A DNA stretch of 64,000 bases. Origin: Pollenia angustigena. Lineage: Eukaryota > Arthropoda > Insecta > Diptera > Polleniidae. Shown one piece after another: positions 20,186 to 63,696 of the stretch (position 1 is the stretch's first letter; the number at the start of each line of letters is the position of its first letter). The translations under genes were made by a program, and so were the position numbers. The notes under the pieces are model-generated. The model worked only from the letters and a program-made list of their open reading frames with translations. It made no database searches and had not been told where the DNA came from. The DNA lies in contig OV884059.1 in the NCBI GenBank assembly GCA_930367215.1, positions 64,265,393 through 64,329,392 on the forward strand, in the 5' to 3' direction.

Positions 20186-20187
<2 letters not shown>

Positions 20188-20216
<29 letters not shown>

Positions 20217-20217
20217 G
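20188..20217. repeat. (TA)n tract at left edge of palindrome
   Basis: An almost pure TA run directly followed by GCACAGCGTG. It may be the insertion target of the left arm or a part of its terminus. Confidence 0.8.
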
Positions 20218-20759
20218 CACAGCGTGCTTTTTCGGCACTTTTTTTCGAGCTACCGTATTTTTTGGGAACATTTGCATTCTTTGAGGACGGTGCCCAAAAA
20301 AATCGTATACCACCAGTAGATTTTGGGCACATAACACTTTGAGTACTATTTTTTTTAAAATTTTTTTTTTTTTGATTGTTAATTTACTTTTAATTCTTTT
20401 TATAAATAACGTATCCATTAATTTATAGACTCTAAATAAATGCCTAAATTTTTAATTTTTATTTAAAATTTTCCATTCGTGTGCTGCCATATTTTCAATT
20501 TTAAATTAATACATTTGACGCCATTAATTCTGTGCTTTTGCGTTTTTTCTTTGTTTTTAGAGATTAAGCATTATATCCAAGGTGGGTAGTAAGAAACAGC
20601 TGTTTACTTTTTAATCCCATTTGTCTATGCTTGTTGTTGTATTGGTTGTAATACTTAGACCACCTTTTAAGTACACATGTGCATTTCTTACAAAAAGCAT
20701 AAACAAAACGTGTTACCACTGAAAATCATTATCGTTTTTTTTAGATATACATGTGTACA

Positions 20760-20960
20760 TATAAATATATTGGAATGTTATTTTTTTTTGTATGTATGTA
20801 TGTCTGTCTGTCTGTTCGTATGTTTGTTGGTTGTAATGATATTGTAATGTTTATTTTTTTGAATGTCTGTAAATCTGTCCGTATGCTTGTTTGTAGTTTG
20901 TTTGTTTGTTTGTTCGGATGTTTGTTTGTTTGTTTGCTTGTTTATTTGATTGTTTCATTC
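20760..20960. repeat. TTTG/TCTG simple repeats, left arm
   Basis: Runs of TGTATGTATG, TCTGTCTGTC and TTTGTTTGTT. The 71-codon Cys/Val/Phe-rich open frame here is a translation of the simple repeat, not a gene. The same sequence lies inverted at about 62735-62915. Confidence 0.7.
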
Positions 20961-21048
20961 AGTTAAGAAAACCTTATAGCAAGTTAAACAGTTGCTTTTG
21001 TGAAGTTTTGTTATTATTTTTTAATTGTTTACATACCCCTAAAGATGG

Positions 21049-21065
21049 TTAGCGACGCTAACCGA
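21049..21065. repeat. GGTTAGCGACGCTAACC hairpin
   Basis: A perfect 7-bp stem with a 3-base loop, mirrored in the right arm near 62623-62639. It is followed by inverted AT-rich sequence (TTTTAATTTTTATTT). Role unknown. Confidence 0.55.
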
Positions 21066-21239
21066 AATATTGGGAATTAAAAATAAAAACTTAAAAACAA
21101 AAATCACAAGTTTTTAATTTTTATTTCTTTACTTGGACCTACAGCCAAACAAAAACAACCAATAATTAATCTGTTTGTTTGTTTTTAATAAATTTGTTTG
21201 TTTGTCATACATTTGTTTGCCATATATTTTATCACCCAA

Positions 21240-23335
21240 GGGCGCGTCCTGGGCAGCTATGGGACTTTTCTGCAACATTTTTCTAGTCTGTATGGTAGCC
21301 CCCTTAAGGAATGGAGAAAGCGGGTAGATATCTTAGAAACATATTGTGGGGATAAAAAATAAAGTGGGGTTGGTCATACATTTGACCCGTCTAGGAGCAT
21401 CCTACGCGCTGAAGGGGCCAACTTTAAGAATTTCATTACACCGCCATATTTGTATAGGAGCCTCCATAAGGGGTGGAGATGAGGTGCAAGTATATTTAAA
21501 GAAAATGTTGGGGCCAAAAAACTAATAGAGGCCGGTCATACCTGGGCAGTTATGGGACATTTTGTATGGGAGCCCCCTTAAGGAATGGAGATAGGGGTTA
21601 TGTATGTTAGAAATAAATGATGGAGATGAAAAATAAAGTAAGGCTCGTCATAGATTTGACCCGTCTAGGAGCACCCTACGCTCTGCAGGGGCCAACTTTA
21701 ATAATTTTATTAAACCGCCATATTTGTATGAGACCCTCCCTAAGGGGTTGAGATAAGGTGCAAGTATATTTAAAGAAAATGTTGGAGCCAAAAAACTAAT
21801 AGGGGTCGGTCATACATGTTATCCCCCTGGGGGCCATTCCTGGGCAGTTATGGATATTTTTCTTCAATAAATTTCTAGACTGTATTGAAAATTTTATAGG
21901 GAAGCCCCCTTAAGGAATGGAGATAGCGGTTAGGTATGTAAGAAATAAATGATGGAGATGAAAAATAAAGTGAGGTTCGTCATAGATTTGAACCGTCTAG
22001 GAGCACCCTACGCTCTGCAGATGCCACTTTAAGAATTTCAAAAAACCACCATGTTTGTATGGGAGCCTACCTACGGGGTGCAGATAAGGTGCAAGTATAT
22101 TTAAAAAAATGTTAGGGCCGAAAAACTAATAGAAGTCGGTCATACATTTTTACCCCTTAGGGACGATTCCTGGTCAGTTATGGGTCTTTTTCTTCAATAT
22201 ATTTCTAGAATGTATTGAAAATTTTATATAAGAGCCCCCTTAAGGAATGGAGATAGCGGTTAGGTATGTTAGAAATAAATAATGGAGATGAAAAATAAAG
22301 TGAGGTTGGTCATAGATTTGACTCATCTAGGAGCACCCTACGCTCTGCAGGGGCCAACTTTAAGAATTTCATTAAACCGCCATATTTGTATGGGAGCCTC
22401 CCTACGGGGTACAGAAAAGTTGCAAGTATGTTTAAAGAAAATGTTGAGGATAAAAAACTAATAGCGGTCGGTCATACATTTTATCCCCCTAGTGGCGATT
22501 CCTGGGCAGTTATGGGACGTTTACTTCAATAAATTTCTAGGCTGTATTGCACATTTTGTATGGGAGCCCCCTTAAGGAATGGAGATAGGGGTTACGTATG
22601 TTAGAAATAAGTGATGGAGATGAAAAATAAAGTAAGGTCCGTCATAGATTTGACCCGTTTAGGAGCACCCCACGCTCTGCAGGGGCCAACTTTAAGAATT
22701 TTATTAAACCGCCATATTTGTATGAGAGCCTCCCTAAGGGGTTGAGATAGGTGCAAGTATATTTAAAGAAAAGGTTGGAACCGAAAAACTAATATAGGTC
22801 GGTCGTATATTTTATCCCCCTAAGGGCGATTCCTGGGCAGTTATGGATATTTTTCTTCAATATATTTCTAGACTGTAATGCAAATTTTATATGGGAGCCC
22901 CCTTAAGGAATGGAGATAGCGGTTAGGTATGTAAGAAATAAATGATAGAGATGAAAAATAAGGTAAGGTTGGTCATAGATTTTACCCGTCTAGGAGCACC
23001 CTACACTCTGCAGAGGCCACTTTTAGAATTTCACTTAACCACCATATTTGTATGGGAGCCTACCTACAGGGTGCAGATAAGGTGCAAGTATATTTAAAGA
23101 AAATGTTAAGGCCAAAAAACTAATAGAAGTCGGTCATACATGTTATCCACCTAGGGACGATTCCTGGCCAGTTATGGGTCTTTTTCTTCAATATATTTCT
23201 AGACTGTATTGAAAATTTTATATGGGAGCCCCCTTAAGGAAAGGAGATAGCGGTTAGGTATGTTAGAAATAAATAATGGAGATTAAAAATAAAGTAAGGT
23301 TGGTCATAGATTTTACCCGTCTAGGAGCACCCTAC
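21240..23335. repeat. ~330-bp tandem array, left arm (about 7 units)
   Basis: The anchor GCCCCCTTAAGGAATGGAG occurs at 21298, 21572, 21904, 22234, 22566, 22896 and 23228, giving spacings of 274, 332, 330, 332, 330 and 332. Each unit also has a CCGTCTAGGAGCACCCTACG block and a CCGCCATATTTGTATG block. Units fall into three subtypes by the sequence after CCCT (GGTTGAG, GGTGCAG, GGTACAG), repeated in order, so a ~993-bp higher-order period is visible. No open frame runs through it. Confidence 0.85.
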
Positions 23336-23816
23336 GTTTCTGGCAAAGTTTTTCAAAGATATTTTGTTATGAATACTAAAAAACAGTGACAACTAAATTG
23401 TTTTATTTTGCTGTTAAGTTTTCTAAGTTCTTCTGTCGTCTGCTTATTTTTGTTTATATGTTAATTTTTATAAATTAATAACATCCAATTTGTTTTAATA
23501 ACATCCAAAGATAGTTACATTTAAATTATTTTAATGTTTGCTTAAAAATTACATAGGTACCCTATATTTATGACTTAAATAGATATAAAAATGAATTTAT
23601 ATGATATCATTATCTTAAAAATAGTCATTAAATATAAAATAAAAATGTTATGTTAATAAAAGTTAAACGTTAGAAATGGATATTCAAATTTTTTTCAAAA
23701 TGTATCTATTTGGGAAAAAGGGTATCATTTTGGAAACTAAAATGTATCTTTCTCGAAATTTCACTGGTAACACTGTAATACATATTAATGTAAGAATGTG
23801 TTAGTGTACAAAATTG
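23336..23816. other. AT-rich spacer in left arm
   Basis: AT-rich sequence without genes, mirrored at about 59610-60060. Contains ATCCAATTTGTTTTAATAAC-type repeats. Confidence 0.5.
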
Positions 23817-24130
23817 CACACAGAGTTGCATTACATCAGCGTTGCCATTGTGAAAAATTGTCCCTCTTTTTTTATTTACGAAGTTTTAAAGTTAAAGAAG
23901 GTTTTTAAAAATATCCTGCCGTATTCATAAAAAATTACTGTGAATTACAGCGCATGAACATTCTGCCTTAAAACCTATTTTAAACTTATTTTATTTTTTT
24001 AAACGGCTGATACAATTAAATTTGCTGTATATTGGATGACTATTATATGATGATTTTTTGCTTTTGACCGATCTTATATTTTATCTGTCCTTTATTAGTG
24101 CAACGTTTTTGAGTTTTGTGTACCCCTTAG
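23817..24130. repeat. Boundary module copy 1 (ACACAGAGTTGCA..CAGCGTTGCCA)
   Basis: CACACAGAGTTGCA at 23817-23830 and CAGCGTTGCCATTGTG at 23836-23852 are followed by TATATTGGATGA and TTTATCTGTCCTTTATTAGTG. It is a diverged copy of the modules flanking the satellite arrays (38.3 and 28.5 kb, and mirrored in the right arm). Confidence 0.6.
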
Positions 24131-24277
24131 TGCCAATTCACACGTTGCAAGTCTTATTGACCAGCTTGCTACCTTATAGGCGAGAGAGAGTGAGAGAGAA
24201 ACGTTTATTTTCCTCTCTTCACTCTCGTTATAGAGTAGCAGGCTGATCAATAAGACTTGCAACGTGCGAATTGGGAC
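24130..24277. mobile_element. 148-bp hairpin MITE with TTA target duplication (left arm)
   Basis: Arms GTGCCAATTCACACGTTGCA and the inverted TGCAACGTGCGAATTGGGAC, extending about 55 bp each around a GAGAGAGAG-rich loop. Flanked by TTA (24127-24129, 24278-24280). A 3-bp TTA duplication suggests a Harbinger-type MITE. Present at the mirrored place in the right arm, so it predates the duplication. Confidence 0.65.
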
Positions 24278-24627
24278 TTAATGTGTACCCCTTTATGCCT
24301 TAATTAAGGGTTGCGCGATCAAGTTTTAATACACTCGCACTTTTTTACCAATTAACTCACACTTAGTGAGTGGATTGACCTACTACGTTTAAACGTTAAG
24401 GAACATATTTAATGGAAAGAGCAAAATATTGGAAATTTTTGCGTCTCCAAAGTAAGATATTACGATGAGTCTGAATTTTTTCCATAATATATATTTTGTC
24501 GTTACCAAATCTATACCAAATATGAATTTAAACAGAAATGTTGGATTAATACACTATTGTTGAACAAAAGCGATATGTGTCATTTTAAAGATCTGCTTAT
24601 ATGAATTATGTTTTTATTTTTGAAATA

Positions 24628-25760
24628 CAGTAGAATCCCGATAATTCGTAATCGCAAGGGACCAGCAATTTCCTACGAATTATAGGGGCTTTTGATTTAG
24701 CGGGCTTTCGATTTAACGGGGTTAAAATAAAAAAAATACGAATTAAAGGGCTTTTCAATTTATTTACTAAAACGATAAAAAAAAACATAAAAAACAATTG
24801 TTGAAAATAAAATACAGTTAAACCTCGATTAACCGGGCCTCTATTAATCGGTTACATCTATTAACCCGCATGCGGTTCTTTTTACTTTTTCCCTCTATTA
24901 TCCGTGCTTTACCTCTATTTTCCGTGCTTTAGATTTATACCTCTATTAACCGTGCTTTACATATATTATCCGTGCAGGATTCATATGATTTTTATTATGT
25001 ATGTTAATCTAAATACGGTGTTTCCCCTTTTTAAGTTCATGTGCCCACACATAAGAACATACATATATGCGTTTTTATTCATTTAGTAAGTGAAATTTAA
25101 ACATTTCGTCAGAAGAAATGCAAAAACAAAAAAGCAATAAACGTTGTAAAATTTACAAATTTTGTGCAGTCATGTAGTTTGATCAACCAAAGCATAGTCA
25201 GTAAAAATCCAAATTTTAATGTTTTTGACGATACATACATATTTGATTTTGCATTGTCTATGACAATTTGTATATTTTGTAAAAAATTTGTTGTATATTA
25301 TAATCTGTAGTTACATAAATCGAATGTTTTAATAAAAATACATAAATTTCTGTATATTTTAATATAACCTCTATTAACCGTGTATTTCGATTTTCCGTGC
25401 TGGTGCCGGTCCCACGAAAGCCGGATAATAGAGGTTTAACTGTATATAAAAATTATACATGTAACAAACTGATATTAAGAAAATAAACACACACACAAGC
25501 AAAAACCCACAAAAAACAAAGCGGTAAACAAAAAATTATTCTTTCCATGTTTCTGTTGTTTTTATTATGAATGATAAGTGGTAGTTAGCAAACAATTACG
25601 ATTTATAAGAGATAAAGAAGATTTTATTTGAAAAAAAATTTATAATTAGCGAGGGGACCAAAATGTATGGAAATTTTACGAAATAACGAGATTTTTTCAA
25701 AGGACCGACAGTTATCGGGAATAACGATTTACCGGGGTACGACTTATCGGGATTTGACTG
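24628..25760. mobile_element. pogo-like MITE, interrupted (left arm)
   Basis: The termini CAGTAGAATCCCGATAATTC and the inverted TTATCGGGATTTGACTG are flanked by TA. This resembles pogo/Tigger ends. The element is about 503 bp once the nested 628-bp insertion is removed, against 504 bp for the uninterrupted copy in the right arm. No transposase. Confidence 0.7.
24815..25442. mobile_element. Second pogo-like MITE nested in the first; left arm only
   Basis: CAGTTAAACCTCGATTAACC at 24815 is mirrored by the inverted GGATAATAGAGGTTTAACTG ending at 25442, with TA on each side (24813-24814, 25443-25444). The interior repeats CCTCTATTAACCGTGC-type units. The right arm has the clean empty site at 58622-58623, so this insertion followed the inverted duplication or was never copied to the other arm. 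Confidence 0.75.
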
Positions 25761-26620
25761 TAAATAGTTTCTTGTTATCAATTTTTTTAAAATAAAAATA
25801 TATTTTTTTTATTTAATTTTCTTATATCTTTTTATGTGGTTTTTTTGACTTCCCTCTGTGTGTTTATTTGTAATTGCTACGCAAAGGTTTAGGAAAAAGA
25901 CAAGAAGATAAAACAGGTGTAAAAAGTCCTACTTTTGGGTACTTTTTGTAAACACTTGTTTTTAACAATTTTGCTTAAAATTGAAACCTATGTTCTTTAC
26001 GATACGTTGTAAAGCGGCCCATACACTTGCAATATTATTGTATATGATATTCGCCATATTATTTCCATTTTGTCGTAAATTATGCAATAAGTCGCACAAT
26101 GGTTTAAATTTAAATATTGCTCAACTTTCATTAAAAAAAAGGTGTACATACATAACCTTTATGAATAACATCAACAGCATTGTACAATGTTAGCAACAAA
26201 TTTCAGTTTCTTTTCGTTGTGCAATACAAATCAAATGTCTTTTGATTGTTGCCAATATAATTTGTTACCTTCGAATATCACATACACATCGATATAATTG
26301 TACAATACTTAAAATTTAACAATTTTATTGCAAGTGTATGAGCCACTTAAGAACGTAAGTTAACGGTCGTACATTTTTTAAAACACGATCTATTTACTTA
26401 CAATTCCGTCGTACACAAATCGAGTTTTCTTTTGAAAATAATCTTAAAAAAATCTAAATTTTTGTTAATTTTTTCCTTGGTTTATGTTGTTATCAAATAT
26501 TCAATTTGAGAACACAAAAATAATTTAAATTAAATTTTCAATTTTTATTTCCCTTCTCCAGCAACTTTCAAAAATCCTTTGTGTTTATACGATGATTTAA
26601 AGTTACGTATTTTTTATTTG

Positions 26621-26745
26621 CAGAAGCGCCTCGATTATCTGTCATTCGATTAACCGGCAGATGCAACACTATTCGTTTGTAACTTAATTAGAAACACACA
26701 AAAAACTACTCAAAATTGTTGCTATGGATGATCGAGGACTTACTG
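26621..26745. mobile_element. Short decayed pogo-like MITE (left arm)
   Basis: CAGAAGCGCCTCGATTATC and the inverted GATGATCGAGGACTTACTG bound 125 bp. The termini are of the same CCTCGATTA type as the neighbouring MITEs. Mirrored at about 57297-57421. Confidence 0.5.
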
Positions 26746-26759
26746 TATTTTCAATTTAT

Positions 26760-28520
26760 AAAACGTAACGATAAGAAAATAAATAAGTTGAAAGATAAAT
26801 CTGAGAAAAAGTCATGAAAAACACAAACCAAGTATTTTTGTTTACCCCTCTATCTTCACTTAACCGTTAGCCACCAAACCAAAAGAGAAGTTGTAAAAGC
26901 CCCCGTCTGAATTTTCTGTAAGTCGACGTACGACGTAGATACGCTTTTAGATTTGCGCCAGCTATTGTGTGCCTTTGTATACAATAGTATACATATTAAT
27001 TTGACATCGTATCTACGTCGTAGACTACTACGTTCATACGGTGCAATTGTGTTCCTTATCATAGAGATAGCAAACAAATATAGTACATCTGAAGAGAAAG
27101 CTGTTACAAATTTGTACTTTTTGAAAATTTTGGCTAACCCTTAATTTTTTATTTTTTAAACAGGCATATTTTTCAGAAACCAATTATGATTTTGTTTTAA
27201 TAATTGCAGCTTTACACTAGGAGACAAAAATTGTATAACGAACTAACGCAAAAAAGCTGCAGCTAGCGCCATAGAATTGCTAAAATGTCGACAAATTTTA
27301 ATTTATTTTTTTAACATTCATGGCCCGCCGCGGCCAAACTGTGGATTCTTTAGTAAAGTTCTATTCAGAAAAAATAATTCTTATAATATAATTCAAAATT
27401 CTTTAGAACATCATAATTCTTTTTTTACATTTTTCAGCTGTATTTATATCGAAAATTCGAAATATGTGTAAAAAATTATTATTGGATAATTTACGTTTTT
27501 ACCTTTTGCAATGTATTTCATAAATTTCACGAATTTCCGATAAAAAATACAACTGAAAAATGTGAAAAAATGCATTTTTCAGTAACTATATATGAGGAAT
27601 TATGAATTAGAGTAAAAGGAGTATTTTTTCTGAAGATTACCGTTTGGCAGCTACGGGCCAAAAATGTTTTTGAGGCTTTAGATAAATTTTTTCGGATTAT
27701 TTTGTTCTACTTATTTTCTAAGAGTCTATAGCTACAATTATGGCGAAAATAATTGCTTTCCGAGATTAAGACATGAGAAAAATAAAATAAAAACTAGCAA
27801 AACGCAAAAGTTTCGTTGGTTACGAAAAGTACTTCGAGAAATTCCACACGAGAAAGAGTTTGAAAAATTGGACTATGGGCCAAAAATAGTGCAAAATATT
27901 TAAAAATTTAATATTTTAGCAATTTTAATTCACTAAATACTGTTTTTACGCTTATTTTGTTTTAAGCTTTCCTTCTCCCAGTTTATAGCTAAGATTATGG
28001 TGAAGACAAGAAAACAAAATGCTAAATGGTTTCCGAGATAAAGAGCATGTAACAGGTGCATAAAAAAACCTTGGTACATTTTTATTAATAATGAAATACA
28101 ATAAAATTTTTTTAGAGCCAATTCATTATAGAATAAAAAGTGCTTAAAGTAATAAAAAGTAAAACTACAACTTGTTACAGACGGTCGTTATTAAAATTTA
28201 ACTTTTGAACAGAACATTGCATAATTCAATATAAGACTTTGAACAGTGAACACTTAAGTCGATTTCATCATTTTTAGATACTTCAGCACCTTAAAGAATA
28301 CATTTGTGATCGTTAAGGTATGAAGTATTGAAGGAGTAAACAAAATTAAACAACGTTACAGTAATAAAGCAGATAGAATCTAAGATAGCTTTGTTGCACT
28401 TAACTTCACTTAACGTTTTCATCTAATATACTGCAAAGATTAGATTATATATTGACAAAAATCTTTATACAAATTTTAAACATGTGTACGTCTAACAATA
28501 TTTAAAAAAAAGGGAAAATA
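26760..28520. other. Left-arm spacer leading into the satellite boundary
   Basis: Non-coding. Contains a TACGACGTAGATACG / CGTATCTACGTCGTA inverted pair (about 26930-27023). From about 27530 to 28520 it is an inverted diverged copy of 38350-39370 (for example CGATAAAAAATACAACTGAA and ATATGAGGAATTATG). About 130 bp (27566-27696) is missing at the mirrored place in the right arm. The open frames here have no motif and recur only because the arm is duplicated. Confidence 0.5.
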
Positions 28521-28523
28521 TGA

Positions 28524-28558
28524 CAAATGGCAACGCTGTTCAAGTGCAACTCTGTGTG
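28524..28558. repeat. Boundary module copy 2 (inverted)
   Basis: CAAATGGCAACGCTG and TGCAACTCTGTGTG, the inverted form of the boundary motif, lie just outside the satellite array. Confidence 0.65.
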
Positions 28559-28669
28559 ATTATTTCTACACTGCTGCTAATGTAGCAATTTTCTTGTCAA
28601 AACCAGCGAATTTAAATAAAATTTATTAGTAAAACTTTTTGGCGTTTTATCGCTAAATTATATAAAATT

Positions 28670-31600
28670 TCAATTATTTCTTTTCAAAAAGGGCGGTTTT
28701 TATTGGTTTATAACTAAATATACTTTCTATTTAAAATTTGGAGCTATTTTTTATTGTGTTTCATTAATAATAATTCAATAATTTTATTTCAAAAAGGGTG
28801 CTTTTTAGCGATTTATGACTAAAAATACTTTCTATTTAAAATATTGAGCTATTTTTTTTTGTGTTTGTTTTACCATATTTCAATAATTTCTTTTCAAAAA
28901 GGGCGATTTTAGGGATTTATGTCTATATATACTTTCTATTTAAAATATTGTGCTATTTTATATTGTGTTTGTGTTATAATATTTCAATAATTTATTTTTA
29001 AAAAGGTCGATTTTAGCGATTTATGTCTAAATATACTTTCCATTTAAAATTTTGAGCTATTTTTTATTGTGTTTCATTAATAATAATTCAATAATTTATT
29101 TTCAAAAAGGGTGGTTTTTAGCGATTTATGACTAAATATACTTTCTATTTAAAATATTGTGCTATTTTATATTGTGTTTGTGTTATAATATATCAATAAT
29201 TACTTTTTAAAAATGGCGATTTTAGCGATTTATGTCTAAATATACTTTCTATTTAAAATATTGTGCCATTTTATATTGTGTTATAATATTTCAATAATTT
29301 CTTTCTAAAAAGAGCGATTTTAGCAATTTATGTCTAAATATACTTTCCATTTAAAATTTTGAGCTATTTTTTATTGTTTCATTAATAATAATTCAATAAT
29401 TTCTTTTCAAATAGGGTGGTTTTTAGCGATTTATGGCTAAATATACTTTCTATTTAAAATATTGTGCTATTTTATATAGTGTTTGTGTTATAATATTTCA
29501 ATAATTTCTTTTTAAAAAGGTCGATTTTAGCGAATTAAAATTTTGAGCTATTTTTTATTGTGTTTCATTAATAATAATTCAATAATTTCTTTTCAAAAAG
29601 GGTGGTTTTTAGCGATTTATGACTAAATATACTTTCTATTTAAAATATTGTGCTATTTTATATTGTGTTTGTGTTATAATATTTCAATAATTTCTTTTTA
29701 AAAAGGTCGATTTTAGCGATTTATGTCTAAATATACTTTCCATTTAAAATTTTGAGCTATTTTTTATTGTGTTTCATTAATAATAATTCAATAATTTCTT
29801 TTCAAAAAGGGTGGTTTTTAGCGATTTATGACTAAATATACTTTCTATTTAAAATATTGTGCTATTTTATATTGTGTTTGTGTTATAATATTTCAATAAT
29901 TTCTTTTTAAAAAGGTCGATTTTAGCGATTTATGTCTAAATATACTTTCCATTTAAAATTTTGAGCTATTTTTTATTGTGTTTCATTAATAATAATTCAA
30001 TAATTTCTTTTCAAAAAGGGTGGTTTTTAGCGATTTATGACTAAATATACTTTCTATTTAAAATATTGTGCTATTTTATATTGTGTTTGTGTTATAATAT
30101 TTCAATAATTTCTTTTTAAAAAGGTCGATTTTAGCGATTTATGTCTAAATATACTTTCCATTTAAAATTTTGAGCTATTTTTTATTGTGTTTCATTAATA
30201 ATAATTCAATAATTTCTTTTCAAAAAGGGTGGTTTTTAGCGATTTATGACTAAATATACTTTCTATTTAAAATATTGTGCTATTTTATATTGTGTTTGTG
30301 TTATAATATTTCAATAATTTCTTTTTAAAAAGGTCGATTTTAGCGATTTATGTCTAAATATACTTTCCATTTAAAATTTTGAGCTAGTTTTTATTGTGTT
30401 TCATTAATAATTATTCAATAATTTCTTTTCAAATGGGGTGGTTTTTAGCGATTTATGACTAAATATACTTTCTATTTAAAATATTGTGCTATTTTATATT
30501 GTGTTTGGGTTATAATATTTCAATAATTTCTTTTTAAAAAGGTCGATTTTAGCGATTTATGTCTAAATATACTTTCCATTTAAAATTTTGAGCTATTTTT
30601 TATTGTGTTTCATTAATAATAATTCAATAATTTCTTTTCAAAAAGGGTGGTTTTTAGCGATTTATGACTAAATATACTTTCTATTTAAAATATTGTGCTA
30701 TTTTATATTGTGTTTGTGTTATAATATTTCAATAATTTCTTTTTAAAAAGGTCGATTTTAGCGATTTATGTCTAAATATACTTTCCATTTAAAATTTTGA
30801 GCTATTTTTTATTGTGTTTCATTAATAATAATTCAATAATTTCTTTTCAAATAGGGTGGTTTTTAGCGATTTATGACTAAATATACTTTCTATTTAAAAT
30901 ATTGTGCTATTTTATATTGTGTTTGTGTTATAATATTTCAATAATTTCTTTTTAAAAAGGTCGATTTTAGCGATTTATGTCTAAATATACTTTCCATTTA
31001 AAATTTTGAGCTATTTTTTATTGTGTTTCATTAATAATAATTCAATAATTTCTTTTCAAAAAGGGTGGTTTTTAGCGATTTATGACTAAATATACTTTCT
31101 ATTTAAAATATTGTGCTATTTTATATTGTGTTTGTGTTATAATATTTCAATAATTTCTTTTTAAAAAGGTCGATTTTAGCGATTTATGTCTAAATATACT
31201 TTCCATTTAAAATTTTGAGCTATTTTTTATTGTGTTTCATTAATAATAATTCAATAATTTCTTTTCAAAAAGGGTGGTTTTTAGCGATTTATGACTAAAT
31301 ATACTTTCTATTTAAAATATTGTGCTATTTTATATTGTGTTTGTGTTATAATATTTCAATAATTTCTTTTTAAAAAGGGCGATTTTAGCGATTTATGTCT
31401 AAATATACTTTCCATTTAAAATTTTGAGCTAGTTTTTATTGTGTTTCATTAATAATTATTCAATAATTTCTTTTCAAATGGGGTGGTTTTTAGCGATTTA
31501 TGACTAAATATACTTTCTATTTAAAATATTGTGCTATTTTATATTGTGTTTGGGTTATAATATTTCAATAATTTCTTTTTAAAAAGGTCGATTTTAGCGA

Positions 31601-38100: not shown

Positions 38101-38260
38101 CTCTAAAAACCACCCTTTTTGAAATAAAATTATTGAAATATTATAAAACAAAGACAATTAAAATAGCAACATTTTTTAAATAATAAGTTAATTAAGCTAT
38201 AAATTGCTAAAAACCATATTTTTTAAATAAAATTATTTATTCCAGTAAAATTTTATTAAA
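35171..38260 (-). repeat. Satellite array B, left arm (~103-bp unit, opposite orientation)
   Basis: The strand reverses at about 35,170. Units here read AACCACCCTTTTTGAAATAA, ATTATTGAAATATTATAAAA and CAAGCAAAAATAGCTAAATT. The reverse complement is clearly homologous to the GGGTGG monomer of array A but with its own diagnostic bases (TCAGCGATTTATAGCTAAAT). Period about 103 bp, about 30 units. Confidence 0.95.
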
Positions 38261-38269
38261 AATCGCTGG

Positions 38270-39370: not shown

Positions 39371-39371
39371 C

Positions 39372-41046: not shown

Positions 41047-41049
<3 letters not shown>

Positions 41050-41097: not shown

Positions 41098-41100
<3 letters not shown>

Positions 41101-44940: not shown

Positions 44941-44944
44941 TCCA

Positions 44945-52200: not shown

Positions 52201-55200
52201 CACAAACACAATATAAAATAGCACAATATTTTAAATAGAAAGTATATTTAGTCATAAATCGCTAAAAACCACCCTTTTTGAAAAGAAATTATTGAATTAT
52301 TATTAATGAAACACAATAAAAAATAGCTCAAAATTTTAAATGGAAAGTATATTTAGACATAAATCGCTAACATCGCTCTTTTTAGAAAGAAATTATTGAA
52401 ATATTATAACACAATATAAAATGGCACAATATTTTAAATAGAAAGTATATTTAGACATAAATCGCTAAACTCGCCCTTTTTAAAAAGTAATTATTGAAAT
52501 ATTATAACACAAACACAATATAAAATAGCACAATATTTTAAATAGAAAGTATATTTAGTCATAAATCGCTAAAAACCACCCTTTTTGATATGAAATTATT
52601 GAATTATTATTAATGAAACACAATAAAAAATAGCTCAAAATTTTTAAATGGAAAGTATATTTAGACATAAATCGCTAAAATCGCTCTTTTTAAAAAGAAA
52701 TTATTGAAATATTATAACACAAACACAATATAAAATAGCACAATATTTTAAATATAAAGTATATTTAGTCATAAATCGTTAAAAACCACCCTTTTTGAAA
52801 TGAAATTATTGAATTATTATTAATGAAACACAATAAAAAATAGCTCAAAATTTTAAAAAGAAAGTATATTTAGTTATAAACCAATAAAAACCGCCCTTTT
52901 TGAAAAGAAATAATTTAAATATTATAAAACAAACACAATATAAAATAGCACAATATTTTAAATAGAAGGTATATTTAGACATAAAGCGCTAAAATCACCC
53001 TTTTTAAAAAGAAATTATTGAAATATTATAACACAAACACAATATAAAATAGCACAATATTTTAAATAGAAAGTATATTTAGACATAAATCCCTAAAATC
53101 GCCCTTTTTAAAAATAAATTATTGAAATATTATAACACAATATAAAATAGCACAATATTTTAAATAGAAAGTATATTTAGTCATAAATCCCAAAAATCGC
53201 CCTTTTTGAAAAGAAATTATTGAAATATGGTAAAACAAATACAAAAAAAATAGCTCAATATTTTAAATAGAAAGTATTTTTAGTCATAAATCGCTAAAAA
53301 GCACCCTTTTTGAAATAAAATTATTGAATTATTATTAATGAAACACAATAAAAAATAGCTCAAAATTTTAAATAGAAAGTATATTTAGTTATAAACCAAT
53401 AAAAACCGCCCTTTTTGAAAAGAAATTATTGAAATATGGTAAAACAAACACAATAAAAAATAGCTCAATATTTTAAATAGAAAGTATATTTTGTTATAAA
53501 CCAATAAATACCACCCTTTTTGAAAAAATGATTGAAATAATATAACAGAAACGCAATAAAAAATAGCTCAATATTTTAAATAGAAATTATATTTAGTTTT
53601 AAATCGCTAAAAACCACCCTTTTTGAAAAGAAATTATTGAATTATTATTAATGAAACACAATAAAAAATAGCTCCAAATTTTAAATAGAAAGTATATTTA
53701 GACATAAATCGCTAAAATCGACCTTTTTAAAAAGAAATTATCGAAATATTATAACACAAACACAATATAAAATAGCACAATATTTTAAATAGAAAGTATA
53801 TTTAGTCATAAATCGCTAAAAACCACCCTTTTTGAAAAGAAATTATTGAATTATTATTAATGAAACACAATAAAAAATAGCTCAAAATTTTAAATGGAAA
53901 GTATATTTAGACATAAATCGCTAAAATCGCTCTTTTTAGAAAGAAATTATTGAAATATTATAACACAATATAAAATGGCACAATATTTTAAATAGAAAGT
54001 ATATTTAGACATAAATCGCTAAAATCGCCCTTTTTAAAAAGAAATTATTGAAATATTATAACACAAACACAATATAAAATAGCACAATATTTTAAATAGA
54101 AAGTATATTTAGTCATAAATCGCTAAAAACCACCCTTTTTGAAAAGAAATTATTGAATTATTATTAATGAAACACAATAAAAAATAGCTCAAAATTTTAA
54201 ATGGAAAGTATATTTAGACATAAATCGCTAAAATCGCTCTTTTTAGAAAGAAATTATTGAAATATTATAACACAATATAAAATGGCACAATATTTTAAAT
54301 AGAAAGTATATTTAGACATAAATCGCTAAAATCGCCCTTTTTAAAAAGTAATTATTGAAATATTATAACACAAACACAATATAAAATAGCACAATATTTT
54401 AAATAGAAAGTATATTTAGTCATAAATCGCTAAAAACCACCCTTTTTGATATGAAATTATTGAATTATTATTAATGAAACACAATAAAAAATAGCTCAAA
54501 ATTTTTAAATGGAAAGTATATTTAGACATAAATCGCTAAAATCGCTCTTTTTAAAAAGAAATTATTGAAATATTATAACACAAACACAATATAAAATAGC
54601 ACAATATTTTAAATATAAAGTATATTTAGTCATAAATCGTTAAAAACCACCCTTTTTGAAATGAAATTATTGAATTATTATTAATGAAACACAATAAAAA
54701 ATAGCTCAAAATTTTAAAAAGAAAGTATATTTAGTTATAAACCAATAAAAACCGCCCTTTTTGAAAAGAAATAATTTAAATATTATAAAACAAACACAAT
54801 ATAAAATAGCACAATATTTTAAATAGAAGGTATATTTAGACATAAAGCGCTAAAATCACCCTTTTTAAAAAGAAATTATTGAAATATTATAACACAAACA
54901 CAATATAAAATAGCACAATATTTTAAATAGAAAGTATATTTAGACATAAATCCCTAAAATCGCCCTTTTTAAAAATAAATTATTGAAATATTATAACACA
55001 ATATAAAATAGCACAATATTTTAAATAGAAAGTATATTTAGTCATAAATCCCTAAAATCGCCCTTTTTGAAAAAAAATTATTGAAATATGGTAAAACAAA
55101 CACAAAAAAAATAGCTCAATATTTTAAATAGAAAGTATTTTTAGTCATAAATCGCTAAAAAGCACCCTTTTTGAAATAAAATTATTGAATTATTATTAAT

Positions 55201-55500
55201 GAAACACAATAAAAAATAGCTCAAAATTTTAAATAGAAAGTATATTTAGTTATAAACCAATAAAAACCGCCCTTTTTGAAAAGAAATTATTGAAATATGG
55301 TAAAACAAACACAATAAAAAATAGCTCAATATTTTAAATAGAAAGTATATTTTGTTATAAACCAATAAATACCACCCTTTTTGAAAAAATGATTGAAATA
55401 ATATAACAGAAACGCAATAAAAAATAGCTCAATATTTTAAATAGAAATTATATTTAGTTATAAATCGCTAAAAAACACCCTTTTTGAAAAGAAATTATTG
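49216..55500 (-). repeat. Satellite array A, right arm (inverted)
   Basis: About 6.3 kb of A-type dimers in reverse orientation. More heterogeneous than the left array: rarer monomers (ACCAATAAAAACCGCCC, ATAAAGCGCTAAAATC) recur at long intervals. The marker TTGATATGAAATTATTG occurs near 51450, 52587 and 54448, so segments of about 1.14 and 1.86 kb have been duplicated. No genes. Confidence 0.95.
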
Positions 55501-55549
55501 AAATTTTATATAATTTAGCGATAAAACGCCAAAAAGTTTTACTAATAAA

Positions 55550-57295
55550 TTTTATTTAAATTCGCTGGTTTTGACAAGAAAATTGCTACATTAGCAGCAG
55601 TGTAGAAATAAACACACAGAGTTGCACTTGAACAGCGTTGCCATTTGTCATATTTTCCCTTTTTTTTAAATATTGTTAGACGTACACATGTTTAAAATTT
55701 GTATAAAGATTTTTGTCAATATATAATCTAATCTTTGCAGTATATTAGATGAAAACGTTAAGTGAAGTTAAGTGCAACAAAGCTATCTTAGATTCTATCT
55801 GCTTTATTACTGTAACGTTGTTTAATTTTGTTTACTCCTTCAATACTTCATACCTTAACGATCACAAATGTATTCTTTAAGGTGCTGAAGTATCTAAAAA
55901 TGATGAAATCGACTTTAGTGTTCACTGTTCAAAGTCTTATATTGAATTATGCAATGTTCTGTTCAAAAGTTAAATTTTAATAACGACCGTCTGTAACAAG
56001 TTGTAGTTTTACTTTTTATTACTTTAAGCACTTTTTATTCTATAATGAATTGGCTCTAAAAAAATTTTATTGTATTTTATTATTAATAAAAATGTACCAT
56101 GGTTTTTTATGCACCCGTTACATGCTCTTTATCTCGGAAACCATTTAGCATTTTGTTTTCTTGTCTTCACCATAATCTTAGCTATAAACTGGGAGAAGGA
56201 AAGCTTAAAACAAAATAAGCGTAAAAACAGTATTTAGTGAATTAAAATTGCTAAAATATTAAATTTTTAAATATTTTGCACTATTTTTGGCCCATAGTCC
56301 AATTTTTCAAACTCTTTCTCGTGTGGAATTTCTCGAAGTACTTTTCGTAACCAACGAAACTTTTGCGTTTTGCTAGTTTTTATTTTATTTTTCTCATGTC
56401 TAAATCTCGGAAAGCAATTATTTTCGCCATAATTGTAGCTATAGACTCTTAGAAAATAAGTAGAACAAAATAACATTCACATTTTTCAGTTGTATTTTTT
56501 TATCGGAAATTCGTGAAATTTATGAAATACATTGCAAAAGGTAAAAACGTAAATTATCCAATAATAATTTTTTACACATATTTCGAATTTTCGATATAAA
56601 TACAGCTGAAAAATGTAAAAAAGAATTATGATGTTCTAAAGAATTTTGAATTATATTATAAGAATTATTTTTTCTGAATAGAACTTTACTAAAGTATCCA
56701 CAGTTTGGCCGCGGCGGGCCATGAATGTTAAAAAAATAAATTAAAATTTGTCGACATTTTAGCAATTCTATGGCGCTAGCTGCAGTTTTTTTGCGTTAGT
56801 TCGTTATACAATTTTTGTCTCCTAGTGTAAAGCTGCAATTATTAAAACAAAATCATAATTGGTTTCTGAAAAATATGCATGTTTAAAAAATTAAAAATCA
56901 AGGGTTAGCCAAAATTTTCAAAAAGTACAAATTTGTAACAGCTTTCTCTTCAGATGTACTATATTTGTTTGCTGTCTCTATGATAAGGAACACAATTGCA
57001 CCGTATGAACGTAGTAGTCTACGACGTAGATACAATGTGAAAGTAATATGTATACTTTTGTATACAAAGGCACACAATAGCTGGCGCAAATCTAAAAGCG
57101 TATCTACGTCGTTCGTCGCCTTATAGAAAATTCAGACGGGGGCTTTTACAACTTCTCTTTTGGTTTGGTGGCTAACGGTTAAGTGAAGATAGAGGGGTAA
57201 ACAAAAATACTTGGTTTGTGTTTTTCATGACTTTTACTCAGATTTATCTTTCAACTTATTTATTTTCTTATCGTTACGTTTTATAAATTGAAAAT
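55550..57295. repeat. Boundary module copy 5 and spacer (right arm)
   Basis: The boundary motif lies at 55611-55650 (AACACACAGAGTTGCA, then CAGCGTTGCCATTTGTCA). The rest mirrors 26760-28620, with a ~130-bp deletion near 56472-56476. The open frames are mirrored copies of those in the left arm and have no motif. Confidence 0.6.
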
Positions 57296-57296
57296 A

Positions 57297-57421
57297 CAGT
57301 AAGTCCTCGATCATCCATAGCAACAATTTTGAGTAGTTTTTTGTGTGTTTCTAATTAAGTTACAAACGAATAGTGTTGCATCTGCCGGTTAATCGAATGA
57401 CAGATAATCGAGGCGCTTCTG
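57297..57421. mobile_element. Short decayed pogo-like MITE (right arm)
   Basis: Mirror of 26621-26745: CAGTAAGTCCTCGATCATCC to the inverted GATAATCGAGGCGCTTCTG. Function lost. Confidence 0.5.
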
Positions 57422-58306
57422 CAAATAAAAAATACGTAACTTTAAATCATCGTATAAACACAAAGGATTTTTTAAAGTTGCTGGAGAAGGGAAATAAAAA
57501 TTGAAAATTTAAATTAAATTATTTTTGTGTTCTCAAATTGAATATTTGATAACAACATAAACCAAGGAAAAAATTAACAAAAATTTAGATTTTTTTAAGA
57601 TTATTTTCAAAAGAAAACTCGATTTGTGTACGACGGAATTGTAAGTAAATAGATCGTGTTTTAAAAAATGTACGACCGTTAACTTACGTTCTTAAGTGGC
57701 TCATACACTTGCAATAAAATTGTTAAATTTTAAGTATTGTACAATTATATCGATGTGTATGTGATATTCGAAGGTAACACATTATATTGGCAACAATCAA
57801 AAGACATTTGATTTGTATTGCACAACGAAAAGAAACTGAAATTTGTTGCTAAAATTGTACAATGCTGTTGATGTTATTCATAAAGGTTATGTATGTACAC
57901 CTTTTTTTTAATGAAAGTTGAGCAATATTTAAATTTAAACCATTGTGCGACTTATTGCATAATTTACGACAAAATGGAAATAATATGGCGAATATCATAT
58001 CCAATAATATTGCAAGTGTATGGGCCGCTTTACAACGTTCTTATGTGTTTTTGCTGCCTTTATCGTAAAGAACATAGGTTTCAATTTTAAGCAAAATTGT
58101 TAAAAACAAGTGTTTACAAAAAGTACCCAAAGGTAGGACTTTTTACACCTGTTTTATCTTCTTGTCTTTTTTCCTAAACCTTTGCGTAGCAATTACAAAT
58201 AAACACACAGAGGGAAGTCAAAAAAAACCACATAAAAAGATATAAGAAAATTAAATAAAAAAAATATATTTTTATTTTAAAAAAATTGATAACAAGAAAC
58301 TATTTA

Positions 58307-58810
58307 CAGTCAAATCCCGATAAGTCGTACCCCGGTAAATCGTTATTCCCGATAACTGTCGGTCCTTTGAAAAAATCTCGTTATTTCGTAAAATTTCCAT
58401 ACATTTTGGTCCCCTCGCTAATTATAAATTTTTTTCAAATAAAATCTTCTTTATCTCTTATAAATCGTAATTGTTTGCTAACTACCACTTATCATTCATA
58501 ATAAAAACAACAGAAACATGGAAAGAATAATTTTTTGTTTACCGCTTTGTTTTTTGTGGGTTTTTGCTTGTGTCTGTGTTTATTTTCTTAATATCAGTTT
58601 GTTACATGTATAATTTTTATATATTTTATTTTCAACAATTGTTTTTTATGTTTTTTTTTTATCGTTTTAGTAAATAAATTGAAAAACCCCTTTAATTCGT
58701 ATTTTTTTTATTTTAACCCCGTTAAATCGAAAGCCCGCTAAATCAAAAGCCCCTATAATTCGTAGGAAATTGCTGGTCCCTTGCGATTACGAATTATCGG
58801 GATTCTACTG
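58307..58810. mobile_element. pogo-like MITE, uninterrupted (right arm)
   Basis: CAGTCAAATCCCGATAAGTC to the inverted GAATTATCGGGATTCTACTG, 504 bp with TA flanks. It is the counterpart of 24628-25760 without the nested MITE; the empty TA is at 58622-58623. A short open frame at 58286-58501 is chance. Confidence 0.7.
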
Positions 58811-59126
58811 TATTTCAAAAATAAAAACATAATTCATATAAGCAGATCTTTAAAATGACACATATCGCTTTTGTTCAACAATAGTGTATTAATCCAACAT
58901 TTCTGTTTAAATTCATATTTGGTATAGATTTGGTAACGACAAAATATATATTATGGAAAAAATTCAGACTCATCGTAATATCTTACTTTGGAGACGCAAA
59001 AATTTCCAATATTTTGCTCTTTCCATTAAATATGTTCCTTAAAGTTTAAACGTAGTAGGTCAATCCACTCACTAAGTGTGAGTTAATTGGTAAAAAAGTG
59101 CGAGTGTGTTAAGGGGTACACATTAA

Positions 59127-59274
59127 GTCCCAATTCACACGTTGCAAGTCTTATTGATCAGCTTGCTACTTTATAACGAGAGTGAAGAGAGGAAAATAAA
59201 CGTTTCTCTCTCAATCTCTCCCGCCTATAAGGTAGCAAGCTGGTCAATAAGACTTGCAACGTGTGAATTGGCAC
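59127..59274. mobile_element. 148-bp hairpin MITE with TAA flanks (right arm)
   Basis: Mirror of 24130-24277 and exactly the same length. Flanked by TAA at 59124-59126 and 59275-59277. The left arm has about 36 extra bases just beyond this MITE (near 24291-24330) that the right arm lacks. Confidence 0.65.
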
Positions 59275-59550
59275 TAAGGGGTACACAAAACTCAAAAACG
59301 TTGCACTAATAAAGGACAGATAAAATATAAGATCGGTCAAAAGCAAAAAATCATCATATAATAGTCATCCAATATACAGCAAATTTAATTGTATCAGCCG
59401 TTTAAAAAAATAAAATAAGTTTAAAATAGGTTTTAAGGCAGAATGTTCATGCGCTGTAATTCACAGTAATTTTTTATGAATACGGCAGGATATTTTTAAA
59501 AACCTTCTTTAACTTTAAAACTTCGTAAATAAAAAAAGAGGGACAATTTT

Positions 59551-59587
59551 TCACAATGGCAACGCTGATGTAATGCAACTCTGTGTG
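59551..59587. repeat. Boundary module copy 6 (right arm, outer)
   Basis: CACAATGGCAACGCTGATG and AATGCAACTCTGTGTG: the inverted counterpart of copy 1 at 23817-23852. Confidence 0.6.
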
Positions 59588-60065
59588 CAATTTTGTACAC
59601 TAGCACATTCTTACATTAATATGTATTACAGTGTTACCAGTGAAATTTCGAGAAAGATACATTTTAGTTTCCAAAATGATACCCTTTTTCCCAAATAGAT
59701 ACATTTTGAAAAAAATTTGAATATCCATTTCTAACGTTCTAACTTTTATTAACATAACATTTTTATTTTATATTTAATGACTATTTTTAAGATAATGATA
59801 TCATATAAATTCATTTTTATATCTATTTAAGTCATAAATATAGGGTACCTATGTAATTTATAAGCAAACATTAAAATAATTTAAATGTAACTATCTTTGG
59901 ATGTTATTAAAACAAATTGGATGTTATTAATTTATAAAAATTAACATATACACAAGAATAAGCAGACGACAGAAGAACTTAGAAAACTTAACAGCAAAAT
60001 AAAACAATTTAGTTGTCACTGTTTTTTAGTATTCATAACAAAATATCTTTGAAAAACTTTCCCAG

Positions 60066-62450
60066 AAACAGAAAGTTAAATATTTTATTTCTGTACATTT
60101 TGCGTGCTGATTAAAAAAAAAAACATAAAATCTTAGGATTATACATGGTACCTGAAGTCATCAAAAGATACGAAAAATGTATCTTTCGTATCCTAATGGC
60201 ATCACTGACGAAGCCATTATCCCTAGGGGGTTAAAATGTATGAGCGACCTCTATTAGTTTTTTGGCCCAATATTCTCTATAAATATACTTGCACCTTATC
60301 TGCACCCCGTAGGAAGGCACCCATACAAATATGGTGGTTTAGTGAAATTCTTAAAGTGGCCCTTGCAGAGCGTAGAGTGCTCCTAGACGGGTAAAATCTA
60401 TGACCAACCTTACTTTATTTTTAATCTCCATTATTTATTTCTAACATACCTAACCGCTATCTCCTTTCCTTAAGGGGGCTCCCATATAAAATTTTCAATA
60501 CAGTCTAGAAATATATTGAAGAAAAAGACCCATAACTGGCCAGGAATCGTCCCTAGGTGGATAAAATGTATGACCGACTTCTATTAGTTTTTTGGCCCCA
60601 ACATTTTCTTTAAATATACTTGCACCTTATCTGCACCCCGTAGGTAGGCTCCCATACAAATATGGTGGTTAAGTGAAATTCTAAAAGTGGCCTCTGCAGA
60701 GCGTAGGGTGCTCCTAGACGGGTAAAATCTATGACCAACCTTACCTTATTTTTCTTCTCTATCATTTATTTCTTACATACCTAACCGCTATCTCCATTCC
60801 TTAAGGGGGCTCCCATATAAAATTTGCATTACAGTCTAGAAATATATTGAAGAAAAATATCCATAACTGCCCAGGAATCGCCCTTAGGGGGATAAAATAT
60901 ACGACCGACCTATATTAGTTTTTCGGTTCCAACATTTTCTTTAAATATACTTGCACCTATCTCAACCCCTTAGGGAGGTTCTCATACAAATATGGCGGTT
61001 TAATAAAATTCTTAAAGTTGGCCCCTGCAGAGCGTGGGGTGCTCCTAAACGGGTCAAATCTATGACGGACCTTACTTTATTTTTCATCTCCATCACTTAT
61101 TTCTAACATACGTAACCCCTATCTCCATTCCTTAAGGGGGCTCCCATACAAAATGTGCAATACAGCCTAGAAATTTATTGAAGTAAACTTCCCATAACTG
61201 CCCAGGAATCGCCAGTAGGGGGATAAAATGTATGACCGACCGCTATTAGTTTTTTATCCTCAACATTTTCTTTAAACATACTTGCAACTTTTCTGTACCC
61301 CGTAGGGAGGCTCCCATACAAATATGGCGGTTTAATGAAATTCTTAAAGTTGGCCCCTGCAGAGCGTAGGGTGCTCCTAGATGAGTCAAATCTATGACCA
61401 ACTTCACTTTATTTTTCATCTCCATTATTTATTTCTAACATACCTAACCGCTATCTCCATTCCTTAAGGGGGCTCTTATATAAAATTTTCAATACATTCT
61501 AGAAATATATTGAAGAAAAAGACCCATAACTGACCAGGAATTGTCCCTAGGGGGTAAAAATGTATGACCGACTTCTATTAGTTTTTCGGCCCTAACATTT
61601 TTTTAAATATACTTGCACCTTATCTGCACCCCGTAGGTAGGCTCCCATACAAACATGGTGGTTTTTTGAAATTCTTAAAGTGGCATCTGCAGATCGTAGG
61701 GTGCTCCTAGACGGTTCAAATCTATGACGAACCTCACTTTATTTTTCATCTCCATCATTTATTTCTTACATACCCAACCGCCATCTCCATTCCTTAAGGG
61801 GGCTTCCCTATAAAATTTTCAATACAGTCTAGAAATATATTGAAGAAAAATATCCATAACATACTTGCAACTTTTCTGTACCCCGTAGGGAGACTCCCAT
61901 ACAAATATGGCGGTTTAATGAAATTCTTAAAGTTGGCCCCTGCAGATCGTAGGGTGCTCCTAGATGAGTCAAATCTATGACCAACCTCACTTTATTTTTC
62001 ATCTCCATCATTTATTTCTAACATACCTTACCGTTATCTCCATTCCTTAATGGGGCTCCCATATAAAATTTTCAATACAGTCTAGAAATATATTGAAGAA
62101 ATAGACCCATAACTGCCCATGAATCGCCCCTAGAGAGATAAAATGTATGACCGGCCTCTATTAGTTTTTTGGCCCCAACATTTTCTTTAAATATACTTGC
62201 ACCTCATCTCCACCCCTTATGGAGGCTCCTATACAAATATGGCGGTTTAATGAAATTCTTAAAGTTGGCCCCTGCAGCGCGTAGGATGCTCCTAGACGGG
62301 TCAAATGTATGACCAACCCCACTTTATTTTTTATCCCCACAATATGTTTCTAAGATATCTACCCGCTTTCTCCATTCCTTAAGGGGGCTACCATACAGAC
62401 TAGAAAAATGTTGCAGAAAAGTCCCATAGCTGCCCAGGACGCGCCCTTGG
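60066..62450. repeat. ~330-bp tandem array, right arm (about 7 units)
   Basis: Mirror of 21240-23335. Subtype order differs: read from the outside it is first-type, GTACC, GCACC, GTACC, CAACC, GCACC, and an extra GCACC-type unit at 60200-60400. An abrupt junction at about 61858 shortens one period to about 252 bp, so an internal deletion or unequal exchange has occurred. About 130 bp of non-repeat DNA (60066-60195) near the inner edge has no left-arm match. Confidence 0.8.
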
Positions 62451-62734
62451 GTGATAAAATATATGGCAAACAAATGTATGACAAACAAACAAATTTATTA
62501 AAAACAAACAAACAGATTAATTATTGGTTGTTTTTGTTTGGCTGCAGGTCCAAGTAAAGAAATAAAAATTAAAAACTTGTGATTTTTGTTTTTAAGTTTT
62601 TATTTTTAATTCCCAATATTTCGGTTAGCGTCGCTAACCATCTTTAGGGGTATGTAAACAATTAAAAAATAATAACAAAACTTCACAAAAGCAACTGTTT
62701 AACTTGCTATATGATTTTCTTAACTGAATGAAAC

Positions 62735-62915
62735 AATCAAATAAACAAGCAAACAAGCAAACAAACAAACAAACAAACATCCGAACAAACAAACAAACAA
62801 ACTACAAACAAGCATACGGACAGACTTACAGACATTCAAATAAATAAACATTACAATATCATTACAACCAACAAACATACGAACAGACAGACAGACATAC
62901 ATACATACAAAAAAA
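62735..62915. repeat. CAAA/CAGA simple repeats, right arm
   Basis: Inverted copy of 20760-20960 with a slightly different repeat count. The 100-codon open frame over 62720-63022 is a repeat translation. Confidence 0.7.
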
Positions 62916-63477
62916 AAATAACATTCCAATAAATTTATATGTACACATGTATATCTAAAAAAAACGATAATGATTTTCAGTGGTAACACGTTTTGTTTAT
63001 GCTTTTTGTAAGAAATGCACATGTGTACTTAAAAGGTGGTCCAAGTATTACAACCAATACAACAACAAGCATAGACAAATGGGATTAAAAAGTAAACAGC
63101 TGTTTCTTACTACCCACCTTGGATATAATGCTTAATCTCTAAAAACAAAGAAAAAACGCAAAAGCACAGAATTAATGGCGTCAAATGTATCAATTTAAAA
63201 TTGAAAATATGGCAGCACACGAATGGAAAATTTTAAATAAAAATTAAAAATGTAGGCATTTATTTAGAGTCTATAAATTAATGGATACGTTATTTATAAA
63301 AAGAATTAAAAGTAAATTAACAATCAAAAAAAAAAAAATTTTTAAAAAAATAGTACTCAAAGTGTTATGTGCCCAAAATCTACTGGTGGTATACGATTTT
63401 TTTGGGCACCGTCCTCAAAGAATGCAAATGTTCCCAAAAAATACCGTAGCTCGAAAAAAAGTGCCGAAAAAGCACGC

Positions 63478-63483
<6 letters not shown>

Positions 63484-63538
<55 letters not shown>
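63484..63538. repeat. (TA)n tract at right edge of palindrome
   Basis: A TA run with one C interruption directly follows the inverted GCACGCTGTGC terminus. With the left tract it brackets the whole palindrome, so any target duplication is hidden in TA repeats. Confidence 0.85.
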
Positions 63539-63539
<1 letters not shown>

Positions 63540-63696
63540 ATTTTGCTAGTGGTAACACTGGTGGAAGGTCTATTCGAGTGTGATTCAAAATATAATTATT
63601 TAATGCAATCTTTTATTTTTAGAATAGAGAAACAAATACAATTATTTATTGAACGTAAAAAGTTTAAAAAATCTTATTGCTAACGTTGGAGCATCT

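Follow-up and report, generated by a model that had tools for sequence, protein, structure and literature searches.

The DNA considered here (the window) is a stretch of 64,000 nucleotides from the fly Pollenia angustigena (assembly GCA_930367215.1, contig OV884059.1, called C4 below, positions 64,265,393-64,329,392), which holds a palindrome of 43 kb bounded and centred by (TA)n microsatellites. This palindrome is very probably a head-to-head pair of units of about 21 kb that inserted separately and belong to a single dispersed transposon family, and the element is best read as belonging to a giant, apparently non-coding, satellite-bearing transposon family that targets (TA)n. When the window is compared with itself by BLAST, inverted self-matches span 20,186-63,540, and a global alignment of the arms identifies the segment 20,217-41,049 as the inverted counterpart of 41,098-63,482, colinear from the edge to the centre. 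A preliminary description, made from the letters alone, had reported that the order of the blocks between 20.2 and 41.05 kb is mirrored between 41.1 and 63.5 kb, and had proposed a self dot-plot as a check; the self-comparison, with inverted matches over the whole reported span, and the global alignment both bear this out, and as judged in the assembled sequence the 43-kb palindrome is real.

The (TA)n tracts described at both edges and at the centre are found where they had been placed. In fact, the 64 kb contain four runs of at least six TA units, located at the left edge (20,186), at the centre (41,051) and at the right edge (63,484 and 63,522), the last two being parts of a single interrupted tract that is hence counted twice. 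Over the 7,090 bases aligned outside the satellites, the arms show 59 substitutions (0.83%) and 17 insertion or deletion (indel) events, while the satellite blocks show 2.2-6.6% substitutions from arm to arm; an increase of arm identity towards the centre is not significant (Fisher p=0.11). Beyond the edges, the two flanks have in common scattered repeat fragments only, none of them less than 2 kb from the right edge.

Fixed ends and dispersed copies of the unit

The outer and inner ends of each arm are similar (GCACAGCGTGC..TTTTTCGGCAC and GCASAGAGTG..TATTTCGGGCAC). With the alignment anchored at the (TA)n edge, the score of outer versus inner end is equalled by 3 of 29,619 random pairs, and among the 26 edges of (TA)4 or more that were listed, five rows correspond to the four ends, and none of the remaining 21 scores above 4. 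An unanchored local alignment of the ends is no better than random pairs of sequence from the window (9.4% equal it), because repeats inflate the random-pair control. A putative terminal inverted repeat (TIR) of the unit, short and imperfect, has its support in the anchored comparison; an extension to about 95 bp, equalled by none of 1,000 shuffles but by 4 of 2,000 real windows, was discarded as unspecific in the window scan. The similarity of ends anchored at (TA)n suggested that each arm is a complete unit and that two such units make up the palindrome.

The same genome (an assembly of 1.37 Gb in 31 contigs) was searched with blocks of the arm, and the window's own copy is counted in the figures that follow, which are minimum values because only the best candidates were scored. 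The outer-end block of copy 1, the left arm, matches at 97-100% identity in the best 40 of 955 candidate places, with 37 of the 40 matches starting at base 1; the inner-end block gave 44 matches at the best 40 of 139 candidate places, 41 of them at 100%; and the middle block (25,443-27,566) is found at full length and 98-100% identity in 38 of the best 40 of 5,737 candidate places, and in pieces in the remaining 2. Moreover, the exact pattern of the inner end occurs 91 times in the genome (the reversed control, 0 times), in two types, A (53 occurrences) and B (38 occurrences).

The loci fetched from these searches and oriented alike have the same boundaries. In 29 of 30 outer-end loci the unit begins at GCACAGCGTGC immediately after (TA)n, the first bases being absent in the thirtieth (L030), and all 30 inner-end loci (...CTCTSTGCAA) run straight into (TA)n, beyond which the sequence varies among the loci. 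Two of the inner-end loci, L048 and L067, both come from the window's own centre, one from each side of it, and the 30 loci therefore represent 29 places. The search of the same genome that had been suggested for these outer ends has thus returned many further loci flanked by (TA)n, and copies at many sites, with (TA)n at both fixed ends, correspond to a (TA)n-targeting DNA transposon, as a kind and not as a clade. The family is dispersed and, from sequence comparison, looks young and mobile; recent movement looks likely because the copies are 97-100% identical in the searched blocks.

The size of the unit is indicated by the distance between its ends. An inner end on the same strand (exact pattern, within 5-45 kb) was found for 33 of the 40 best outer ends, with spans from outer to inner end of 16.5-39.4 kb (median 21,976 bp; 31 of the 33 under 28.5 kb). 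Furthermore, at 25 of the 29 inner-end places whose far side was covered, no second inner end lies past the (TA)n. The mobile unit is taken to be one arm because of these two results, namely the 25 of 29 places with no second inner end and the 33 of 40 outer ends paired about 22 kb away.

Pairs in one microsatellite and kinship of the arms

Head-to-head pairs, with inner ends 387-403 bp apart by the block search, are present at 4 of the best 40 of 139 inner-end places, in the window and at C4:44.09, C2:169.65 and C5:47.02 Mb. Other arrangements share a tract in the same manner: in L043, head-to-tail neighbours are joined through (TA)22, and in L044, L045 and L069 one (TA) tract is common to the unit and to a related element that starts with GCACAGCGTT (GTACAGCGTT in L045). 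A tandem arrangement is also possible for two more same-strand neighbours on C4, at distances of 18 and 26 kb. Since head-to-head, head-to-tail and mixed neighbours all occur, a single microsatellite can accumulate units in both orientations. As a separate observation by eye, the interior of the related element in L044 and L069 (GCACAGCGTTTATTTAGCGAACAG) and in L045 partly resembles the window at about 23,840-24,000.

The target can be seen at the dimer at C4:44.07, one of the other head-to-head pairs: its outer flanks correspond to the sequence on either side of a (TA)n within a host repeat. When these flanks are joined (183 letters), the best 40 of 908 candidate places match at 93-95%, all of them without the element (36 cover bases 1-183 and 4 cover bases 4-183), and this pair of 42 kb therefore sits inside one microsatellite. 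The dimer is the place for which such an empty (TA)n site was found. The host repeat itself shows, among the best 40 of 908 rows, about 10 opposite-strand pairs some 6-6.5 kb apart, an arrangement that resembles the inverted ends of another element family, and its flank motifs recur by eye beside L012, L013, L020, L024, L031, L034, L036, L054 and L061.

A different reading makes the head-to-head pair itself mobile, as a foldback element of 43 kb, with a single ancestor for all four pairs. It is favoured by the existence of four pairs, three of which combine an A-type with a B-type inner end, and by the outer ends of the C4:44.07 pair, whose two clades are those of the window's arms. Nevertheless, most units are unpaired (25 of the 29 places seen), one of the pairs is of the A/A type, single (TA)n tracts also hold head-to-tail and mixed neighbours, and the outer ends of the window pair and of the C4:44.07 pair are not specifically closest to each other, which makes a mobile pair very unlikely. 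A foldback element whose two arms move together as the TIRs of one unit would not lack its second arm at 25 of 29 places.

The kinship of the arms bears on a local origin of the palindrome. In the outer-end block, copy 2 (the right arm) ranks 28th of 30 among the relatives of copy 1 (1.12% divergence, against 0.19% for the nearest), and copy 1 ranks 22nd of 30 among the relatives of copy 2. The 29 comparison loci had been chosen as the best matches to copy 1, a choice that favours the ranking for copy 1, while the ranking for copy 2 holds despite it. In the maximum-likelihood tree of this block the arms are separated by a branch supported at 95/96 (the bootstrap being unsettled), and copy 2 is absent from the best 40 places of copy 1 both at the outer-end block (of 955) and at the middle block (of 5,737). 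On these comparisons, the arms fall in different subfamilies of one dispersed family.

For a local inverted duplication, the (TA)n next to a lone unit would have broken and folded back, the unit would have been copied in reverse, and the second (TA)n would have rejoined the right flank. That inverted duplications can form by fold-back has been established for human and yeast, according to the portions of the literature cited here (PMC3907307, PMC7467729), and all breakpoints of the palindrome do fall in (TA)n. However, such a duplication, like a hairpin artefact, predicts sister arms, the opposite of the kinship observed: the arms are not each other's closest relatives either by rank or by clade. 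Forcing the arms of the C4:44.07 dimer to be sisters costs 38.7 log units (approximately unbiased, AU, test, p=3.7e-5), a clear result, although the same test is borderline for the window. Fold-back duplication at (TA)n, once a leading rival, is thus opposed by the kinship of the arms and by the many unpaired copies, and we regard it as highly improbable. An insertion present in copy 2 only, together with a CA footprint in copy 1, had also been considered as a sign of local duplication and was dropped, since a common ancestor with the insertion would suffice.

Artificial palindromes are a recognised fault of amplified long-read libraries, as stated in the part of the source relied on here (PMC6218980), and the palindrome could in principle be two loci or haplotypes joined at (TA)n by the assembly, or a folded-back read. 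This can hardly be credited, given that the differences between the arms are mostly substitutions (59 versus 17 indel events), that insertions differ between the arms and the palindrome does not continue into the outer flanks, that the arms lie in different clades, that four such pairs exist and that one of them has a single host repeat divided between its flanks.

The palindrome is, then, probably neither a single giant foldback element nor a local inverted duplication. Of the two origins offered in the preliminary description, a giant foldback element of a new class is not borne out as worded, with 25 of 29 places single and 33 of 40 outer ends paired on the same strand, so that the unit is one arm; the "heterochromatic segmental palindrome" finds no support, given the membership of the arms in different subfamilies of a dispersed family. 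The size, which had been called unusual, survives in part: an unusually large, satellite-bearing mobile element is present, though not with a 43-kb foldback as its unit.

For separately inserted units, we infer a sequence of events in which a transposase acting in trans would recognise the GCACAG ends and insert the unit into (TA)n. A first copy would have been resident in a (TA)n tract, and the tract beside it would have stayed a target; a second copy, from the other subfamily, would then have entered the same tract facing the first, leaving pure (TA)n between the inner ends and giving rise to the palindrome. The window's own site would have the same origin as that of the C4:44.07 dimer. Several observations weigh against this account. 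For seven of the 40 outer ends, no exact same-strand inner end was found at a distance of 5-45 kb; no transposase was found in 18 open reading frames (ORFs) of the window compared with Pfam; the empty site was demonstrated at the C4:44.07 dimer and not at the window's own site; and forcing the window's arms as sisters costs 23.9 log units with a borderline AU p=0.0514. In addition, three of the four pairs join A-type and B-type inner ends and one joins A and A, a pairing that is unremarkable given 53 A and 38 B ends, yet compatible with a pair moving as one.

Contents of the two copies

The features of the two copies are collected in the table. Satellites and minisatellites make up more than 10 kb in each copy.

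Features of the palindrome (window coordinates)
Feature	Coordinates	Strand	Remarks
Left (TA)n, slightly interrupted	20186..20216		separates flank from copy 1
Copy 1 (left arm), ~20.8 kb	20217..41049	+	subfamily A by inner end (CTCTCTGCAA); most closely related to other copies in the genome
Outer end of copy 1, GCACAGCGTGCTTTTTCGGCAC	20217..20239	+	GCACAGCGTGC start after (TA)n in 29/30 outer-end loci
331-bp satellite array, copy 1	21289..23336	+	
628-bp TIR element (CAGTTAAACCTC...), copy 1 only	24815..25442	+	TA duplicated; copy 2 has the empty site
105/209-bp satellite array, forward, copy 1	28657..35085	+	
Related ~103-bp satellite array, reversed, copy 1	35171..38237	+	
"CA" between two TA, copy 1	38421..38422	+	position of the 1,063-bp element of copy 2
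8-bp minisatellite (CAAATAAA)n, copy 1	39380..40694	+	
Inner end block, copy 1	40695..41049	+	41/44 matches at 100% (best 40 of 139 candidate genomic places)
Central (TA)24	41050..41097		common to both copies
Copy 2 (right arm), ~22.4 kb	41098..63482	-	subfamily B by inner end (CTCTGTGCAA)
1,063-bp TIR element (CAGTGCACTCG...), copy 2 only	43729..44791	-	
Satellite arrays, copy 2	44974..55510	-	reversed 44,974-49,220; forward 49,306-55,510
331-bp satellite array, copy 2	60220..62113	-	
Right (TA)n, one interruption	63483..63539		separates copy 2 from flank

The 21-kb unit contains an internal inverted repeat that is imperfect, older and away from the unit ends. In copy 1, it consists of the reversed array together with 27,511-28,624 and 38,248-39,373, and its palindromic junctions, likewise older and imperfect, lie near 27.49 kb and 35.1 kb (copy 1 coordinates) and are present in each arm. 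A further, imperfect palindromic junction at 27313-27630, inside each arm, scores 97 against a shuffled maximum of 38. At the site of the 1,063-bp element of copy 2, the TA-CA-TA of copy 1 fits an excision footprint of the kind left by Tc1-like elements.

Copy 1 has the more uniform forward 209-bp array (28657-35085, mean identity 0.960, against 0.912 at 49306-55510 in copy 2), though the unique blocks differ by less than 1%, and most satellite tiles of the two arms have their best match away from the corresponding position. It is because of this difference in uniformity and of the mostly unmatched positions of the tiles that the satellites are considered to turn over faster than the unique blocks.

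With regard to coding content, the set compared with Pfam comprised 8 of the window's 15 ORFs of at least 100 amino acids (most of them in the flanks) and 10 ORFs of 70-94 amino acids from the left arm. None of these 18 ORFs gave a match above the cut-off, and 3 of them gave weak ones below it, in a search that was not aimed at gene-bearing relatives. The earlier statement that the arms hold no host gene and no transposase is supported to this extent, the ORFs having been covered in part only. Pattern scans of viral contigs and of genome contigs, as well as a phage search, found nothing.

Some further features were noted in and around the palindrome. An ORF at 18607-19038 looks by eye like a fragment of a mariner-type transposase, with no Pfam family and no match to a solved structure, and a transfer RNA gene, tRNA-Ile (AAT), lies at 63697-63770, 157 bp beyond the right edge. 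Positions 1-3000 of the window hold two adjoining dispersed repeats, at about 69-1912 and 1912-3000, with separate sets of places at 92-100% identity. In L064, an ORF at 1966-2214, just past the (TA)n, resembles by eye the C-terminal part of a hAT transposase and could not be tied to the element.

Comparison with known systems

The closest parallels for the insertion preference come from plants. MuTAnT elements of Medicago are Mutator-like elements (MULEs) that target (TA)n, with sizes of about 200 bp-1.6 kb and an autonomous copy of 4.9 kb; as far as the cited account goes, they share with the Pollenia element ends that adjoin (TA)n on both sides, many non-autonomous copies and, in some cases, a foldback structure (PMC4486113). 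According to the same account, MuTAnTs have known TIRs and a mudrA-like transposase, whereas the element described here measures about 21 kb, is filled with satellites, has another end sequence and has yielded no transposase. MULEs of the MuTAnT type make target duplications of 9-11 bp, and any duplication made by the present element would be hidden in (TA)n. In the portion cited of a study of microsatellite-associated miniature inverted-repeat transposable elements (MITEs) of pineapple, most are flanked by (TA)n, and adjacent, non-nested insertions are separated by almost pure (TA)n (PMC8449440). This is the same arrangement as that proposed for the paired units; however, the pineapple MITEs are short plant elements, while the units considered here are giant and their head-to-head neighbours form a palindrome of 43 kb.

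Among the foldback elements of flies, Tetris of Drosophila virilis is likewise non-coding, with satellite-like tandem repeats and an inverted structure, but its TIRs reach at most 1,735 bp, it makes target duplications of 8-10 bp, its repeats are far smaller and the cited part of its description notes no (TA)n targeting (PMC4079207). Galileo, a foldback-like element of the P superfamily in Drosophila, resembles the Pollenia element in its long TIRs, internal repetitiveness and mostly non-coding copies, and differs from it, in the sections cited, by TIRs of at most 1.2 kb and target duplications of 7 bp with another consensus (PMC2775673). Arthropod MULEs are DNA transposons with TIRs of very variable length; unlike the present element, they are reported in the cited sections at 1.4-10.0 kb (2.0-5.3 kb in Diptera) with a transposase present (PMC13359780).

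A literature search, which was not exhaustive, found no published description of the 21-kb element. It is conceivable, though rather doubtful, that it is the first member to be seen of an undescribed group of giant, gene-free satellite carriers that home to (TA)n, taking about 10 kb of satellite to up to about 90 sites, forming palindromes of 40 kb where copies face each other in one microsatellite, and belonging, with its transposase, outside the superfamilies described so far. A single genome makes it testable whether transposons spread complex satellites, and also whether large palindromes otherwise ascribed to replication errors or assembly faults can arise through microsatellite homing alone. 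At about 21 kb and with no recognised genes, the unit stands well above the sizes given in the cited parts of the accounts of MuTAnT, arthropod MULEs and Tetris (PMC4486113, PMC13359780, PMC4079207).

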